Assembly: GCA_947428835.1 (NCBI GenBank) | Contig: CANENE010000005.1 | Coordinates: 1 to 64,000, forward strand | DNA length: 64,000 nt | Source of the DNA: an uncultured bacterium | GTDB taxonomy: Bacteria > Cyanobacteriota > Vampirovibrionia > Gastranaerophilales > Gastranaerophilaceae | Direction of reading: 5' to 3' | In this document: piece after piece, positions 1 to 52,009 of the stretch | Numbering within the stretch: the first letter of the stretch is position 1 | Layout of the letters: every line of letters starts with the position of its first letter | The notes under the pieces: model-generated | Database searches by the model: none | What the model was told of the DNA's origin: nothing | What the model saw: only the letters and a program-made list of their open reading frames with translations | Program-made: the position numbers and the translations under genes

Positions 1-139
1 TTCCGACTGTTGTATCAGTTGCTTTGAGTTTTTTAGTGATAACCGGAGCAAATGCTCCAATTAAAAGCGAGATGATAATAAGCGACACCAATAATTCTAC
101 AAGACTAAATGCTTTTATATTTGTATTATTTTTTTTCAT
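1..139 (-). CDS. Type IV prepilin-like protein, N-terminal part only (runs off the window)
   Basis: The 46 visible residues begin with a short Lys/Asn-rich leader, then KAFSLVELLVSLIIISLL, which is a class III signal: a positively charged leader, cleavage before Phe, Glu at mature position 5, and a hydrophobic helix. The ATG (137-139 on the complement) has a good Shine-Dalgarno, TAGGAG, 6 to 7 bases upstream. The visible part is nearly superimposable on the start of the glycine-rich prepilin at 49733-51517, including the ITKKLKA segment after the helix, so the two are paralogues. It is presumably processed by a prepilin peptidase and assembled in a pilus or type II secretion-like pseudopilus, but the body of the protein lies outside the window. 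Confidence 0.85.
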   Translation of the reverse strand, partial: MKKNNTNIKAFSLVELLVSLIIISLLIGAFAPVITKKLKATDTTVG

Positions 140-289: not shown

Positions 290-634
290 ATGATGAAAAA
301 CAATAAAGTTGACATTAAAAATATTTTTGGGGCAAGGGTAAAGGAAGCAAGGAAAAACAAGGGTTTTTCCCAGGAAAAATTTGCAGAAATGATAGGAATT
401 GGAACATCAACCCTAAGTAAAATCGAATGCGGCAAAAGCTATCCAACCCCCGAAACTATAGATAAAATCATATTAAATCTTGAAATAGAGCCATATCTTC
501 TTTTTATGAATTATGATGAAATTTCCCTTGAAAAAGCTCATCAGGCAATTTTGAACAAAATCGACAAACTAAAAAACAACCAAAAACTACTTAAAACAAT
601 TTATGATTTTATTATGTTTTTAGATGCGAAATAA
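290..634 (+). CDS. XRE-family helix-turn-helix regulator
   Basis: This 114-residue protein has one Cro/CI-type helix-turn-helix domain at about residues 11-70 (helix pair around SQEKFAEMIGIGTSTLSKIE), then a short helical tail of about 40 residues. It has no sensor or peptidase domain, so it is probably a small DNA-binding repressor. Two in-frame ATGs open it; the second (293) is equally possible and there is no strong ribosome site. It resembles the XRE protein at 44313-44648 (shared D-I-x-x-I-F-G-A start) and the broken copy at 31211-31570. It stands alone between the partial prepilin gene and a convergent TPR gene; its target is unknown. Confidence 0.85.
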   Translation: MMKNNKVDIKNIFGARVKEARKNKGFSQEKFAEMIGIGTSTLSKIECGKSYPTPETIDKIILNLEIEPYLLFMNYDEISLEKAHQAILNKIDKLKNNQKLLKTIYDFIMFLDAK

Positions 635-43790: not shown

Positions 43791-43970
43791 CGTCATGCCA
43801 AACTTGTTTCAGCATCTGAGGTGTAGGTATGTAAGGATGGATTTATGAATAAGCTTTTATGTATTGCCACAAACTTGGCAAGACCCTGAAACAAGTTCAT
43901 GGTGACGGTTGGTTAAATTAATGTTAAAGTACCGTCATTGCGAGGAGAACGAAGTTCGACGCGGCAATCC
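43791..43970. repeat. Composite palindromic repeat, copy R1
   Basis: Three units in fixed order: A at 43791-43817 (CGTCATGCCAAACTTGTTTC then AGCATCT), B at 43881-43907 (AGACCCTGAAACAAGTTCAT then GGTGACG) and C at 43932-43970 (CCGTCATTGCGAGGAGAACG ... GGCAATCC). Spacer sequence between A and B (ATTTATGAATAA...TTTATGTATT) is also shared with copies R2 and R3, so the whole 180 bases is one repeat, not chance clustering. Confidence 0.85.
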
Positions 43971-44312: not shown

Positions 44313-44648
44313 TTATTTGTTCATTATCCTTAAAATATTATATGCATCATTTAGTTTATCTTGTGGGAAAGATTGTAATAATCTTGAAATTATTTTTATG
44401 GAATCAGCGTGTTCTTTTAAAATTAATGTTGGATTTGTAGCAAAGAGTATACTGGGATGGATGTTTAATACATCGCAAAGTTTTGCAAAAGTATCACTTT
44501 TAGGGAAATTCTTACCAGCTTCAAGACGATAAATTGTGCCTGCTTCCACTCCAATTAGCGCACCAAGTTCCTCTTGTGTCAAATCTTTCATTTTCCTGAT
44601 TTCTTTTAAAGAAGCACCAAAAATTTTTTGAATATCTACGCTGTCCAT
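44313..44648 (-). CDS. XRE-family helix-turn-helix regulator
   Basis: The 111-residue protein has a Cro/CI-type domain at residues about 8-66 (TQEELGALIGVEAGTIYRLE) and a helical tail. It starts with D-I-Q-K-I-F-G-A-S-L-K-E, closely like the start of the XRE protein at 290-634, so they are paralogues. It is divergent from the MerR-type gene at 44777, with a perfect 16-base palindrome lying between them (44736-44751) that either regulator could bind. It may autoregulate; its targets are unknown. Confidence 0.88.
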   Translation of the reverse strand: MDSVDIQKIFGASLKEIRKMKDLTQEELGALIGVEAGTIYRLEAGKNFPKSDTFAKLCDVLNIHPSILFATNPTLILKEHADSIKIISRLLQSFPQDKLNDAYNILRIMNK

Positions 44649-44735
44649 ATAAATATGATAAATTATTTTTTTACCCTTCTCTACATCATAACGTGTAAAT
44701 AATAAGCATATCGTGATTAATTTTTAATGTTGTTG

Positions 44736-44751
44736 TGACTATAAATAGTCA
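44736..44751. promoter_or_regulatory. Perfect palindrome between divergent XRE and MerR-type genes
   Basis: TGACTAT-AA-ATAGTCA, two 7-base arms with a 2-base centre, lies 25 bases before the MerR-type ATG and contains a TATAAA that could be a -10 element. This is a likely operator, but which of the two neighbouring regulators binds it cannot be told from sequence. Confidence 0.5.
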
Positions 44752-44776
44752 TGTTGCAACTAGTAAAGGAGTAACC

Positions 44777-45184
44777 ATGTTTGATTTGTTTAGTAAAACA
44801 GAAAATTCTAAAAAATTACACGTTGGCATATCCAATGCAGCAAGTTATCTTGGAGTCCATTCAAGGACACTTAGAATATGGGATAAGCAAGGATTGTTAG
44901 TTCCAAAAAGAACAAAAAGTGACAGGAGATATTATACTCTTCAAGATATAAAAGATGGAAAGGTTGTTTGGCATCTTTTGAAAAAGGTAAGTTTAAATAT
45001 TGTGGGTGTAAAAATGCTTTTAAGTGCACTAGAATTAAATAGTGAATTTTCTAAGGATAAGTATAAGGCTATACTGAAAATTGAAAAACATGCAAAAATA
45101 ACCAAAGAAATGAAGGAAGAAAATGTAAGGAAAAATTCTAAACGCGGAAGGAAGAAGAAAGAAAAGGAGGAAAAGAAGGACTAA
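44777..45184 (+). CDS. MerR-family DNA-binding protein with Lys-rich tail
   Basis: The 135-residue protein has a MerR-type winged helix at about residues 15-65: ISNAASYLGVHSRTLRIWDK followed by Q-G-L-L-V-P-K-R-T, then S-D-R-R-Y-Y. The helices after it are short and there is no effector-binding domain. The final 25 residues are almost all Lys, Arg and Glu. The chosen ATG at 44777 has AAAGGAG eight bases upstream; a reading frame extension of 14 codons crosses the palindrome and is unlikely. Similar to MerR/HspR-type regulators; function not known. It is divergent from the XRE gene. Confidence 0.82.
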   Translation: MFDLFSKTENSKKLHVGISNAASYLGVHSRTLRIWDKQGLLVPKRTKSDRRYYTLQDIKDGKVVWHLLKKVSLNIVGVKMLLSALELNSEFSKDKYKAILKIEKHAKITKEMKEENVRKNSKRGRKKKEKEEKKD

Positions 45185-49470: not shown

Positions 49471-49650
49471 GTCATGCTGAACTTGTTTCAGCATCTGATG
49501 TGTTGGTGTGAAATAATAGTTTTTACGAATAAACTTCTTTCATTATCACAAACCTGATTAGACCCTGAAACGAGTTCAGGGTAACGATTATGTAAATTCA
49601 TGTGTAATACTGTCATTGCGAGGACGAACGAAGTGAGGACATGGCAATCC
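49471..49650. repeat. Composite palindromic repeat, copy R3
   Basis: Unit A at 49471-49496 (GTCATGCTGAACTTGTTTCA then GCATCT), the shared spacer, unit B at 49560-49586 (AGACCCTGAAACGAGTTCAG then GGTAACG), and unit C at 49611-49650 (CTGTCATTGCGAGGACGAAC ... GGCAATCC). Unit A here is the best palindrome. Together with the worn fragment at 49380-49445 and the terminator, this accounts for the whole stretch between 49362 and 49733. Confidence 0.87.
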
Positions 49651-49660
49651 AAGAAAAATC

Positions 49661-49690
49661 AAAAAAAGCACCTTTGAAAATCAAAGGTGC
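49661..49690 (-). terminator. Terminator after the glycine-rich prepilin gene
   Basis: GCACCTTTGA, loop AAA, TCAAAGGTGC: a perfect 10-bp stem followed on the minus strand by seven T. It lies about 42 bases past the stop of the gene at 49733. Confidence 0.9.
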
Positions 49691-49732: not shown

Positions 49733-51517
49733 TTATATACTTTCTTTCCATTCAAGATAGACATATCCATCTGCGCCTTTGCCGCCATAGCCCCAGAAAT
49801 TATTATCACTTCCTCCTCCGCCACCTCCTGCACCATAAGAAGCTTCATTTGCATCAAAACCGTTTTTTCCTTTGCTGCCCCCGGCTCCACCAAAAAGGCA
49901 GCTATTAAATATGCTATAGGTGCTTCCACCCATGCCACCCGTGCCATCGTTTGTTCCATCAAATCCATTTTGCCCTGCTTCTTCGGATATTCCAAGCCAG
50001 TTTAGAAAAACTGCCCTATCCGAAAGATTTTCTTGCAGCAGGCTTTCGCTTAGTCCACCTTTACCATCTGCAAAATTTCCGCCTTTGCCACCTTTGACTT
50101 TGGCGATTTCTACACCATTAACTAAAATTGATGTATCACCACCTGTAAAACCGTCTTTTGCTTTTTCTTCCTGTCTTATTCCGCCTTTCCCGATTATAAA
50201 GCTCAATTTTTGCCCGGGAACAACTTTTATAGTTCCGATCCAAACTTGACCGGCTCCACCACCGCCTGCACCTTGGGCAGAGCCATAATATTTACAAGAC
50301 AATCCGTTTTTGACAATATCGGTACTATATGTAATTTGGATTGCGCCGGGTTTACCCTTACCTTTCGATGAACCGGAGCAATTTGTTAAAGTATTGAATA
50401 TTTTGTTAGCAGCATTGCTTCCGATACCGCCACCTCCGCCACCGGCTCGAGGTTCTGTTTTATTGGTTTGAAAGTAACCATTGCTTCCTGCTATGTATCC
50501 GGTTGCACCTTTTCCAAGTGTACAAACATAAGTATTTGTGCAGTATGAACCACTTCCTCCAAGTCCGCAGTTAGGGCCTCCGCCATTGCCGCCATTGCCG
50601 CCATATGTAGAGCAGCCATTAACACCACTTACTCCGTTTCCACCGCCTCCGCCACCACCCGGGACTTCAAGAGATGTTCCTATAATTCCGGTTGAACCTC
50701 CGCCTCCGGAGCCGGCAGCCACATCGCAAGAATATTGTGTACTTAAAGTACCGTTTGTACCTGCAATTCCATTGGATAATCCGGTACCACCGGCACCGCC
50801 CGGGGTAATATGTGGCTGCATATCTTTATTTTGCGAACCTATTCTGTTGCCTGGCTGCCCGCCTGAACCAACTATTATCGTAATATTATTTGCTATATTA
50901 GTTAAATTAATAGTTTTATCTGCGATATAGCCTCCTGCACCACCAGGAGCAGTATCCATATATGTAGCACTGTAAGAACCTCCGCCTCCTGCTCCGCAAG
51001 CAGTTGCTTTTGCTATTGTTACATTTGTTTTGGGTGAGAATTTAGGAATTTTACCTTCTGAAGCTACGGAAACATTTGTTGAATCTACAATCCAAATTGA
51101 TTCTGCATTTTTACATTGATTAGGCAAAACAGGTGCTTTATATTCATTTGGTGTCGGAACTCCTGTGAAATCATAAGTTCCTGCTTCTAAAATAGAGCTT
51201 GTTGCATTAGTTAATGCAGGAATATCTGCATACAAGTATCTTTCGATTGTAGAGCTGCTTGCGCCCGAACCGCCGCCTGCTATCATATAAACCATAATTT
51301 CTGTTACTCTGTCGGGAACTATCCAATCTGCTTCTGAAACTAAAACTTCTTTAGAACCTTTTGAAGATGATTGTTTAAAATTTCCTATAGTAACATCGGA
51401 AGCTTTAAGCTTCTTTGTGATAATCGGCGTAAATGCCGCAACTAAAAGAGAGATGATAATAAGTGTAATTAATAATTCAATTAAGCTAAAGGCTTGTAAT
51501 AATTTTTTGTTAATCAT
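49733..51517 (-). CDS. Glycine-rich type IV prepilin-like protein
   Basis: The first 45 residues are a class III prepilin signal and helix: leader MINKKLLQA, cleavage before Phe, Glu at +5, and LITLIIISLLVAAFTPIITK. The body of about 540 residues is exceptionally Gly-rich (many GGGGG, GGNGG, GAGGAGGTG runs) with scattered Cys pairs, resembling the glycine-rich module of ALK-type receptors and of some bacterial surface proteins. Gly-rich runs alternate with strands (NITIIVGSGGQPG, KLSFIIGKGGIRQ). The start at 51517 has AAGAAG only weakly upstream. The same signal occurs in the partial gene at 1-139. It is a single gene with its own terminator; likely a large, secreted minor pilin or adhesin. 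Confidence 0.85.
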   Translation of the reverse strand: MINKKLLQAFSLIELLITLIIISLLVAAFTPIITKKLKASDVTIGNFKQSSSKGSKEVLVSEADWIVPDRVTEIMVYMIAGGGSGASSSTIERYLYADIPALTNATSSILEAGTYDFTGVPTPNEYKAPVLPNQCKNAESIWIVDSTNVSVASEGKIPKFSPKTNVTIAKATACGAGGGGSYSATYMDTAPGGAGGYIADKTINLTNIANNITIIVGSGGQPGNRIGSQNKDMQPHITPGGAGGTGLSNGIAGTNGTLSTQYSCDVAAGSGGGGSTGIIGTSLEVPGGGGGGGNGVSGVNGCSTYGGNGGNGGGPNCGLGGSGSYCTNTYVCTLGKGATGYIAGSNGYFQTNKTEPRAGGGGGGIGSNAANKIFNTLTNCSGSSKGKGKPGAIQITYSTDIVKNGLSCKYYGSAQGAGGGGAGQVWIGTIKVVPGQKLSFIIGKGGIRQEEKAKDGFTGGDTSILVNGVEIAKVKGGKGGNFADGKGGLSESLLQENLSDRAVFLNWLGISEEAGQNGFDGTNDGTGGMGGSTYSIFNSCLFGGAGGSKGKNGFDANEASYGAGGGGGGSDNNFWGYGGKGADGYVYLEWKESI

Positions 51518-51691
51518 AAGTTAAACTTCTTTTTTTAATATAAATACCTAATTTAACTTACATTTTACTTGCGAAACTATATATTGTCAATAATTATTAG
51601 AAGTTTAACTGGGTTAAATAATTATGAGATTGAAATATAATATTTGAATAGTAGTTAAAACATACGATATGAGAGCTTTTAAAGGGAAAAT

Positions 51692-52009
51692 ATGAACAAT
51701 TTAAAATTATTCGGCAAAAGGATTAAAGAGCTTAGAAAAAAGAAAAAGCTCACTCAAGAGGGACTTGCAGAGCTTGTTGGAATTGACTATAAGCAAATCG
51801 GCAACATAGAAACAGGCACATATTTTACAACAATGCCGACTTTAGAAAAAATTGCGCTCTCTCTTGATGTCGAAATAGAGGAATTATTTCAGTTTAACCA
51901 CTACAAAGAAAGGGACAAGCTAATCAAAGAAGTTCAAAAGCTTTTAGGTGATGCAACAGACTGCGAAATTAAAATGATATATAGAATTATAAAGGATGTT
52001 CTAAAATAA
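51692..52009 (+). CDS. XRE-family helix-turn-helix regulator
   Basis: The 105-residue protein has a Cro/CI-type domain at about residues 5-62 (TQEGLAELVGIDYKQIGNIE) and a helical C-terminal tail of 40 residues. It lacks the D-I-x-x-I-F-G-A start of the XRE proteins at 290 and 44313 but has the same size. The ATG has AAAGGGA seven bases upstream. It is a single gene facing the HU gene, with a shared terminator between; target unknown. Confidence 0.88.
   Translation: MNNLKLFGKRIKELRKKKKLTQEGLAELVGIDYKQIGNIETGTYFTTMPTLEKIALSLDVEIEELFQFNHYKERDKLIKEVQKLLGDATDCEIKMIYRIIKDVLK

Follow-up and report, generated by a model that had tools for sequence, protein, structure and literature searches.

A nested glycine-rich domain on a type IV prepilin of a gut Gastranaerophilales bacterium: a probable surface adhesin within a large family of prepilins, nearly all of which face XRE regulators

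The window, by which we mean the whole stretch of 64,000 nucleotides analysed here, opens contig 5 of a 1.8-Mb genome (24 contigs, 97.7% complete). On its reverse strand, at 49733-51517, lies an open reading frame of 594 amino acids that begins with ATG and looks like a prepilin. The gene and its surroundings comprise the following features:

49733..51517, reverse strand: glycine-rich modular prepilin, 594 aa (open reading frame with Pfam and NCBIfam matches)
51491..51517, reverse strand: class III leader peptide, residues 1-9, with predicted cleavage between A9 and F10 (TIGR02532 above cut-off; in register with paralogues)
51404..51490, reverse strand: predicted N-terminal pilin helix, residues 10-38, with E at +5 and P at +22 (single-sequence model)
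51562..51590, reverse strand: promoter-like site TTGACA-17-TAAAAT (11/12) in the divergent intergenic region, 45 bp 5' of the ATG (consensus match only)
49668..49690, reverse strand: terminator-like hairpin followed by seven T, just 3' of the prepilin gene
51692..52009, forward strand: divergent XRE regulator, 105 aa (HTH_19 53.5 bits, HTH_3 45.8 bits), 174 bp from the prepilin start

The N-terminus of the protein reads MINKKLLQA followed by FSLIELLITLIIISLLVAAFTPIITKK, residues 1-9 being a short and basic segment. The NCBIfam model TIGR02532 matches it above the cut-off (19.1 against 16.3 bits), and the Pfam model N_methyl falls just below its own cut-off when the protein is scanned (19.9 against 21.2 bits) and exceeds it, with 25.9 bits, in a six-frame search of the genome. 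Glu +5 and Pro +22 of the predicted mature protein can be read directly off the sequence, in pilin numbering. In a single-sequence model, residues 4-38 form a helix, with the confidence ending at about residue 34 (block pLDDT of 73-89 for residues 1-30 and 52 for residues 31-40, and below 50 from residue 35). Among 39 of the 41 members of the prepilin family of the same genome (see below), the 35 codons counted from position -1 encode leaders with a mean amino acid identity of 82% (741 pairs), as compared to 45% identity at four-fold degenerate third positions (737 pairs). Hence, the leader is conserved as protein, which points to selection on the protein and not to recent copying, and the possibility that it is an ordinary membrane helix or a chance hydrophobic stretch is ruled out. 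The earlier note on this DNA had read the gene as a large glycine-rich prepilin and named a mis-set start as a potential flaw. This concern does not apply, because the leader is in register with the leaders of the paralogues; the class III leader is borne out by TIGR02532, by N_methyl in the six-frame search and by the protein-level conservation, so that the large prepilin is confirmed, with its class III leader followed by an ectodomain that is 21% glycine.

The promoter-like site is the best among 13 sites scanned (shuffles give 5.8). Terminator-like sites number two as against 1.8 in shuffles, so that the argument here is one of position, not of number. With such a site upstream and a hairpin with a T run downstream, the prepilin gene looks monocistronic, as far as can be judged from the nucleotide sequence. 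Beyond its 3' end, the stretches 49473-49496, 49612-49640 and 43794-43817 are short and partly palindromic; one palindrome-like sequence near the prepilin has its second copy at 43794, with two mismatches, where none is expected by chance. An Rfam scan of the window yielded one tRNA and nothing else.

The protein contains 21% glycine and 10 cysteines. The profile search against Pfam glycine-rich families, which had been proposed as a check, retrieved Gly_rich_2 (PF21722) with 78 bits against a cut-off of 24.3 (E 1.4e-21), in three stretches. When pieces of the protein were scanned with this model, the domain order was obtained as follows:

51248..51358, reverse strand: outer Gly_rich_2/TG-like domain, part 1, residues 54-90 (Pfam residues 62-90 correspond to model positions 5-33; 17.7 bits as a lone piece)
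50327..51040, reverse strand: nested second Gly_rich_2 domain, residues 160-397 (model positions 8-225; 23.8 bits, just below the 24.3 cut-off)
49748..50284, reverse strand: outer Gly_rich_2/TG-like domain, part 2, residues 412-590 (model positions 31-225; 48.7 bits)

The order of the model positions in these three pieces implies that the outer domain is split after its first strands and that a second copy is accommodated inside it. Judged by eye from an alignment, the same nested layout is found in three loci of Candidatus Gastranaerophilales (L187, L191, L250). Sequence comparisons of the ectodomain that take composition into account are weak. Bias-corrected phmmer, run on the 438 ORFs that the named loci contain, found no match to the protein at E 1e-5; BLASTP with composition adjustment, between the C-terminal part and L250, was not significant; and a scan of contigs of genomes with the window protein gave no relative. 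When the query minus its last 20 residues was compared by BLASTP with the prepilin of G005 that is the target of a diversity-generating retroelement (DGR), only the leader was significant. BLASTP without composition correction matched many glycine-rich relatives and is not relied upon. Profile searches of the PDB by sequence yielded nothing for the window protein or for the query A2, and an antibody match to L194 in the same search (E 0.007) is taken as chance.

The fold was approached by modelling. Single-sequence AlphaFold on the whole protein was uninformative (mean pLDDT 31.6), and a model from six sequences reached a mean pLDDT of 43.4 and a pTM of 0.37, with 90 of 550 residues at 70 or above. 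In the latter model, the blocks of the outer domain have pLDDT of 85-89 (residues 55-84), 56-92 (residues 425-484) and 84 (residues 585-594), and the nested domain is of low confidence, mostly below 50. Foldseek with this low-confidence model returned nothing at E 0.001 (best E 0.37); 20 of the 31 non-significant rows are ALK/LTK chains and two are the tail fibre of cyanophage Pam3. A second aligner, applied to the 113 alignable chains out of Foldseek's 116, placed the Pam3 fibre and ALK/LTK in all of the top 14 entries, with Z of 9.2-10.6 and the next entries at or below 3.0. On this model of mean pLDDT 43, the Pam3 fibre gave Z 10.6 (167 aligned residues, 3.8 A, 22% identity) and ALK/LTK gave Z 9.2-10.2 (134-144 aligned residues). 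In a search against viral models, several glycine-rich phage proteins were listed, none of them at E 0.001. At low confidence, therefore, the outer domain would have the TNF-like/glycine-rich (TG) fold of the phage fibre and ALK/LTK. The ALK-type glycine-rich modules that the earlier note had seen in the protein are thus supported, with the reservation that the model is of low confidence, and its idea of an adhesin or a fibre tip, which would be the most likely role, gains from the same fold matches.

Could the ectodomain be a low-complexity, largely unfolded matrix or spacer, of the coat, silk or cell-wall kind, with no binding role? The glycine content, the pLDDT below 50 in most of the nested part, and the failure of both phmmer and BLASTP against L250 to find significant relatives are compatible with such a view. 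Against it stand the score with a curated Pfam model, the core strands with a block pLDDT of up to 92 and the consistent Pam3 and ALK rows in the fold comparison, so that we consider an unfolded spacer improbable.

The combination of a prepilin leader with a glycine-rich domain extends beyond this genome. A full-length relative of the window prepilin was found, at E 1e-20, in one of 57 other genomes, namely, G022, where an 818-aa protein matches residues 54-591 at 45% and likewise has an XRE gene opposite, with 30% identity to the window XRE. With a filter of at least 180 aa, at least 12% glycine and one GGGG run, the relatives' loci contain 30 distinct glycine-rich ORFs, of which 20 start with a prepilin leader, 9 are truncated 5' and one is intact at that end and leaderless, i.e. 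the leader is present on 20 of the 21 ORFs with intact 5' ends. Hence, the combination recurs and is not a quirk of one assembly. A divergent XRE gene was detected at 10 of these 20 leader-bearing ORFs and none at the other 10. Shorter or less glycine-rich prepilins near PF21722 matches, e.g. those of L135, L137, L139 and L140, lie outside the filter. A six-frame search with PF21722 matched at least 16 of 58 genomes, a count in which the own genome is unmatched although the window protein itself scores 78 bits. Other ectodomains also occur in such loci: the prepilins L194:4989-6893 and L224:4986-7172 carry numerous Cys-rich repeats of the ephrin-receptor type (PF07699, 119.9 and 99.2 bits), after which L194 has a Gly_rich_2 domain as well. 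L195 contains a lectin-like stretch (recognised by eye) that stands ahead of a low-scoring Gly_rich_2 match (model positions 36-155, 15.7 bits) and lies at about the position of the nested domain in the window prepilin.

This distribution bears on a further possibility, that the gene is a phage tail-fibre protein captured from a prophage or its relic, the prepilin leader being coincidental or secondary. The protein does match PHROG family 863, of the category tail (1.6e-9), and the Pam3 fibre is its top fold match. Nevertheless, the leader is common to 40 paralogues in the own genome and recurs on the glycine-rich ORFs of the relatives, tblastn at 1e-5 against 50,697 records gave no phage match, and the neighbouring genes look like housekeeping ones (ThrS and HU, recognised by eye). 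The absence of a phage match and the recurrence of the leader largely refute the prophage fibre reading, which we regard as very unlikely.

The genome encodes pilus-type machinery. The two components that the earlier note proposed to look for are both present: a prepilin peptidase (Peptidase_A24, one match) and pilus ATPases, with four of five T2SSE matches over the cut-off, the best of them full-length with 418 bits and three others weaker. With the peptidase present and the leader in register, neither of the objections named in that note applies. The best T2SSE gene, at C10:6386-7558, lies near the sole secretin, at C10:8640-9170. Type IV pilus genes as such have already been reported in Gastranaerophilales (PMC5877343, accessible part). 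The leader recurs in the own genome, where BLAST gave 41 matches, self included, and N_methyl gave 46 in six frames at E 1; the stretches fetched around these matches contain 41 motif-bearing genes, which we treat as the family, and three ordinary pilins. The latter, on C4, were kept out as a control; also left out are C3:163307 (a 987-aa frame with its start cut by a contig end), C6:51034 (motif unmatched) and C1:65303 (12 bits). The family comprises 32 whole genes, of 367-1007 aa with a median of 535.5, and 9 that are cut by contig ends (on C1, C3, C5, C11, C16, C17, C19, C20 and C23). With so many members at contig ends, this repeat family is a probable cause of breaks in the assembly, and the actual number of copies may be different. 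One of the cut members opens the window:

2..139, reverse strand: second family prepilin of the window, truncated by the contig end after its first 46 codons (leader match)
290..634, forward strand: divergent XRE regulator of this second prepilin, 114 aa (HTH_19 62.4 bits)

The ectodomains of the family are of very different lengths and mostly built of C-type-lectin-like modules, on leaders that are conserved. One to four copies of the signature W[RK]LP are found in 31 of the 32 complete members, the window prepilin alone being devoid of it; among seven family proteins scanned, three contain Pfam Lcl_C and two contain furin- or ephrin-type Cys-rich repeats (one over the cut-off in either case). 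The window prepilin is the richest in glycine among the complete members (21%, the next one having 12%) and is the sole glycine-rich member of the family of 41. Across 58 genomes, the number of N_methyl matches ranges from 0 to 111 per genome, so that large numbers of prepilin-like genes are in themselves nothing unusual in the lineage.

Nearly all members of the family face a regulator. A profile built from 33 XRE ORFs that had been found by phmmer detects a divergent XRE gene at 37 of the 41 family genes, at a distance of under 450 bp on the upstream side; the other four have, respectively, a MerR-type ORF, a weak HTH_38 (17.5 against 27 bits), no HTH and, on C11, no ORF within 450 bp. As controls, a divergent XRE gene accompanies none of the three ordinary pilins on C4 and one of the remaining 49 window ORFs that are 120 aa or longer, so that among the 50 such ORFs only the window prepilin and the MerR gene at 44735 face an XRE gene. 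The divergent XRE and MerR genes at 44313-45184 have no adjoining prepilin and are perhaps an empty slot or an unrelated pair. In named records, a divergent XRE gene lies within 600 bp at 56 of 80 loci (62 of Candidatus Gastranaerophilales and 18 of uncultured bacterium, with the wrongly parsed L253 still counted). For 33 pairs, XRE similarity and ectodomain similarity are uncorrelated (Mantel r -0.078; 4187 of 5000 permutations at or above), similar ectodomains being found behind dissimilar XRE genes; duplication of regulator and ectodomain as one module is rejected on these grounds. It follows that a one-to-one regulatory link between the two genes is argued from position. We read the occurrence of similar ectodomains behind unlike regulators as slots with exchangeable ectodomains, fast divergence of the XRE genes being the alternative.

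In the own genome, an Avd gene and a reverse transcriptase gene adjoin a lectin-type prepilin (C3:78957-80306) and form a DGR locus at C3:76817-80306 (L079/L107). The Avd protein matches bAvd above the cut-off (48.6 bits) and NF033474 below it (55.9 against 80). A search for the template of this DGR was negative; 16 positions distinguish the repeat from the copy 3' of the reverse transcriptase, which has T at 12 of them, C at 3 and A at one and resembles, by sequence, a further variable repeat. Of the 11 places that match the repeat in this genome, none lies inside the window gene, which is accordingly rejected as a DGR target, having neither such a match nor the W[RK]LP lectin signature. What follows thus concerns its lectin-type siblings. 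Relatives of the reverse transcriptase are present in 9 of 58 genomes, own included. In G016, whose template was searched on six genomes, 24 of 26 mismatches fall at template adenines; in G005, 19 of 20 do so on the coding strand, and both the template and the repeat are coding on the strand opposite to the reverse transcriptase. The target in G005 (L122:517-2172, forward strand) is a prepilin with a DGR-variable lectin module between glycine-rich stretches. The stretch after its variable repeat has no Pfam match, PF21722 included, and hhalign against the window C-terminus gives 1.3% probability, so that these flanks resemble the window ectodomain in composition and layout only.

Two congeners have a DGR with many targets: the own template of G019 matches 11 variable repeats in 9 dispersed genes, and that of G025 matches 11 in 8 dispersed genes, some genes in both genomes having two repeats. 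The prepilin leader is present on seven target genes in G019 and six in G025, with two per genome cut at contig ends, and a divergent XRE gene was detected at 9 of the 14 leader-bearing targets, one of which is from G016. The loci L292-L310 are the DGR loci of G016, G019 and G025, where changes are concentrated at adenines. Pooled over the repeats, the changes affect 227 of 650 adenines versus 75 of 1622 other bases in G019, 231 of 606 versus 80 of 1582 in G025, and 69 of 182 versus 41 of 471 in G016 (three repeats); sites not being independent, p-values on these counts are a guide only. The counts omit a template-like copy in G025 (L308:52265-52481, with differences at 13 of 61 adenines and at 30 of the 159 remaining bases), the short row G025:C8:23277, and everything from G005, G022 and G015. 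The repeats are not uniformly clean, the worst one in G019 having 25 of 157 other bases changed. The association of DGRs with pilin-like proteins is not wholly new, since a DGR survey cites, in its accessible part, earlier work that linked putative pilin structures to DUF1566 targets (PMC6642488). Several cyanobacterial DGRs have multiple targets, according to the available text of PMC7517822, and that of PMC8144416 contains no pilin term. Our literature search found nothing on a DGR with a prepilin, nor on Gastranaerophilales with a retroelement.

Among known systems, the modular type IV pilins come closest. The accessible part of PMC8179133 describes more than 1,200 such proteins in 264 architectures, one of them of 860 residues, so that large pilins with grafted modules were already known and the suggestion of the earlier note that such a protein would be new for type IV pili does not hold. 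Like PilB and PilC of Streptococcus sanguinis, the window protein joins a class III/pilin segment to a large non-pilin module, and both are likely tip-exposed adhesins (PMC8179133, same part). It differs from them in having no recognisable pilin globular module, in the nature of the grafted module, a nested glycine-rich domain that is not named in the accessible text of PMC8179133, and in belonging to a family of 41 prepilins, 37 of which face an XRE gene.

The first of these differences calls for caution. About 15 residues separate the helix, which ends at about residue 38, from the glycine-rich domain, which begins at about residue 54; this leaves no room for the usual pilin globular module between the two, and makes assembly into a filament doubtful. 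Pfam and NCBIfam gave no match to a pilin body above the cut-off, and the structural models are weak. Some fate other than that of a pilus-assembled, surface-displayed adhesin might also be suspected from the size of the family proteins, up to 1007 aa when complete, and from the machinery, with one secretin and one strong full-length T2SSE, next to the three weaker ones, for 41 proteins. Still, modular pilins described so far do assemble and are believed to be exposed at the tip (PMC8179133, accessible part), and the rapidly diversified lectin-type ectodomains of the congener siblings make most sense if exposed. On balance, such an alternative seems to us unlikely, albeit less so than the unfolded spacer, and the modular surface adhesin is the reading with which we proceed.

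The likeness to phage and animal proteins is one of fold. In the available text of PMC9608196, the Pam3 fibre is a TNF-like sandwich with glycine-rich loops and a conserved stem that resembles ALK, its variable tip is proposed to bind the receptor, and gp38 of S16 is named as similar. As in Pam3 gp24 (PDB 7ypx, 7yfw), an N-terminal helix would be followed in the window protein by a TNF-like sandwich that projects glycine-rich loops; gp24 differs in being a trimeric, chaperone-made phage fibre, with no nested second domain mentioned in that text (PMC9608196). The extracellular TNF-like/glycine-rich domain of ALK/LTK (e.g. 7nx3, 7ls0) would have the same fold, by comparison with the low-confidence model; these being animal receptor kinases, such a likeness is no evidence of a common function. 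The lectin-type siblings, and they alone, have a counterpart in the multi-target DGR of Treponema denticola (TvpA family), where one template and one reverse transcriptase serve several dispersed surface proteins of the C-type lectin fold, 62% of the targets having lipoprotein signals (PMC4891356, accessible part). The T. denticola targets number from two to seven genes (PMC4891356), as compared to 8-9 genes with 11 repeats in the two congeners, whose targets, unlike those of T. denticola, carry prepilin leaders, with a divergent XRE gene detected at 9 of the 14 leader-bearing ones, the one from G016 included. Our literature search found no description of such a prepilin/XRE repertoire or of such a layout of a variation system. 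As far as searched, what looks new is a prepilin with a nested glycine-rich module, the large membership of the XRE-paired family and the coupling of this family to a multi-target retroelement in congeners. A further precedent is PilV of plasmid R64 (the shufflon), a minor pilin of large size in which adhesion is varied by swapping the ectodomain; there, a single gene is changed by DNA inversion, unlike the many regulated slots envisaged here.

Taken together, these data suggest that the window prepilin is probably a modular, pseudopilin-type surface adhesin. In the best reading, it would occupy one regulated slot of a repertoire. The XRE protein would regulate the promoter of the prepilin, in the 174 bp between the two genes; processing by the prepilin peptidase would take place after A9, and the helix would admit the protein into a pilus or a pseudopilus as a minor, probably tip-exposed subunit. 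The glycine-rich loops could form a stiff stalk, with the distal tips binding a surface ligand, be it host mucus, epithelium or other microbes, as has been suggested for phage fibres of the TG fold. The genome may then be envisaged as a set of separately regulated slots, each with a different ectodomain, mostly C-type-lectin-like and, in the case considered here, of the TG type.

A broader scenario, which we put forward tentatively and regard as less likely than not, is that gut Gastranaerophilales possess a surface-recognition repertoire that combines fixed slots, one distinct XRE gene each, interchangeable ectodomains on a prepilin anchor and, in certain species, one retroelement that hypermutates many lectin ectodomains in trans, the window prepilin being a slot with a different recognition fold. 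To our knowledge, the interaction of Gastranaerophilales, gut relatives of cyanobacteria, with their host is little known. With 41 genes for prepilin-anchored ectodomains in 1.8 Mb, 37 of which have an XRE gene opposite, this organism would seem to invest heavily in surface recognition, and the prepilin/XRE pairs lend themselves to direct testing. The glycine-rich member points to the reuse, on a bacterial prepilin, of a fold of the phage-receptor type, here nested in itself. If the repertoire reading is true, this would be a system of antigenic or adhesin variation built on type IV prepilins and, should the slots be expressed one or a few at once, a prokaryotic counterpart of surface-antigen repertoires.
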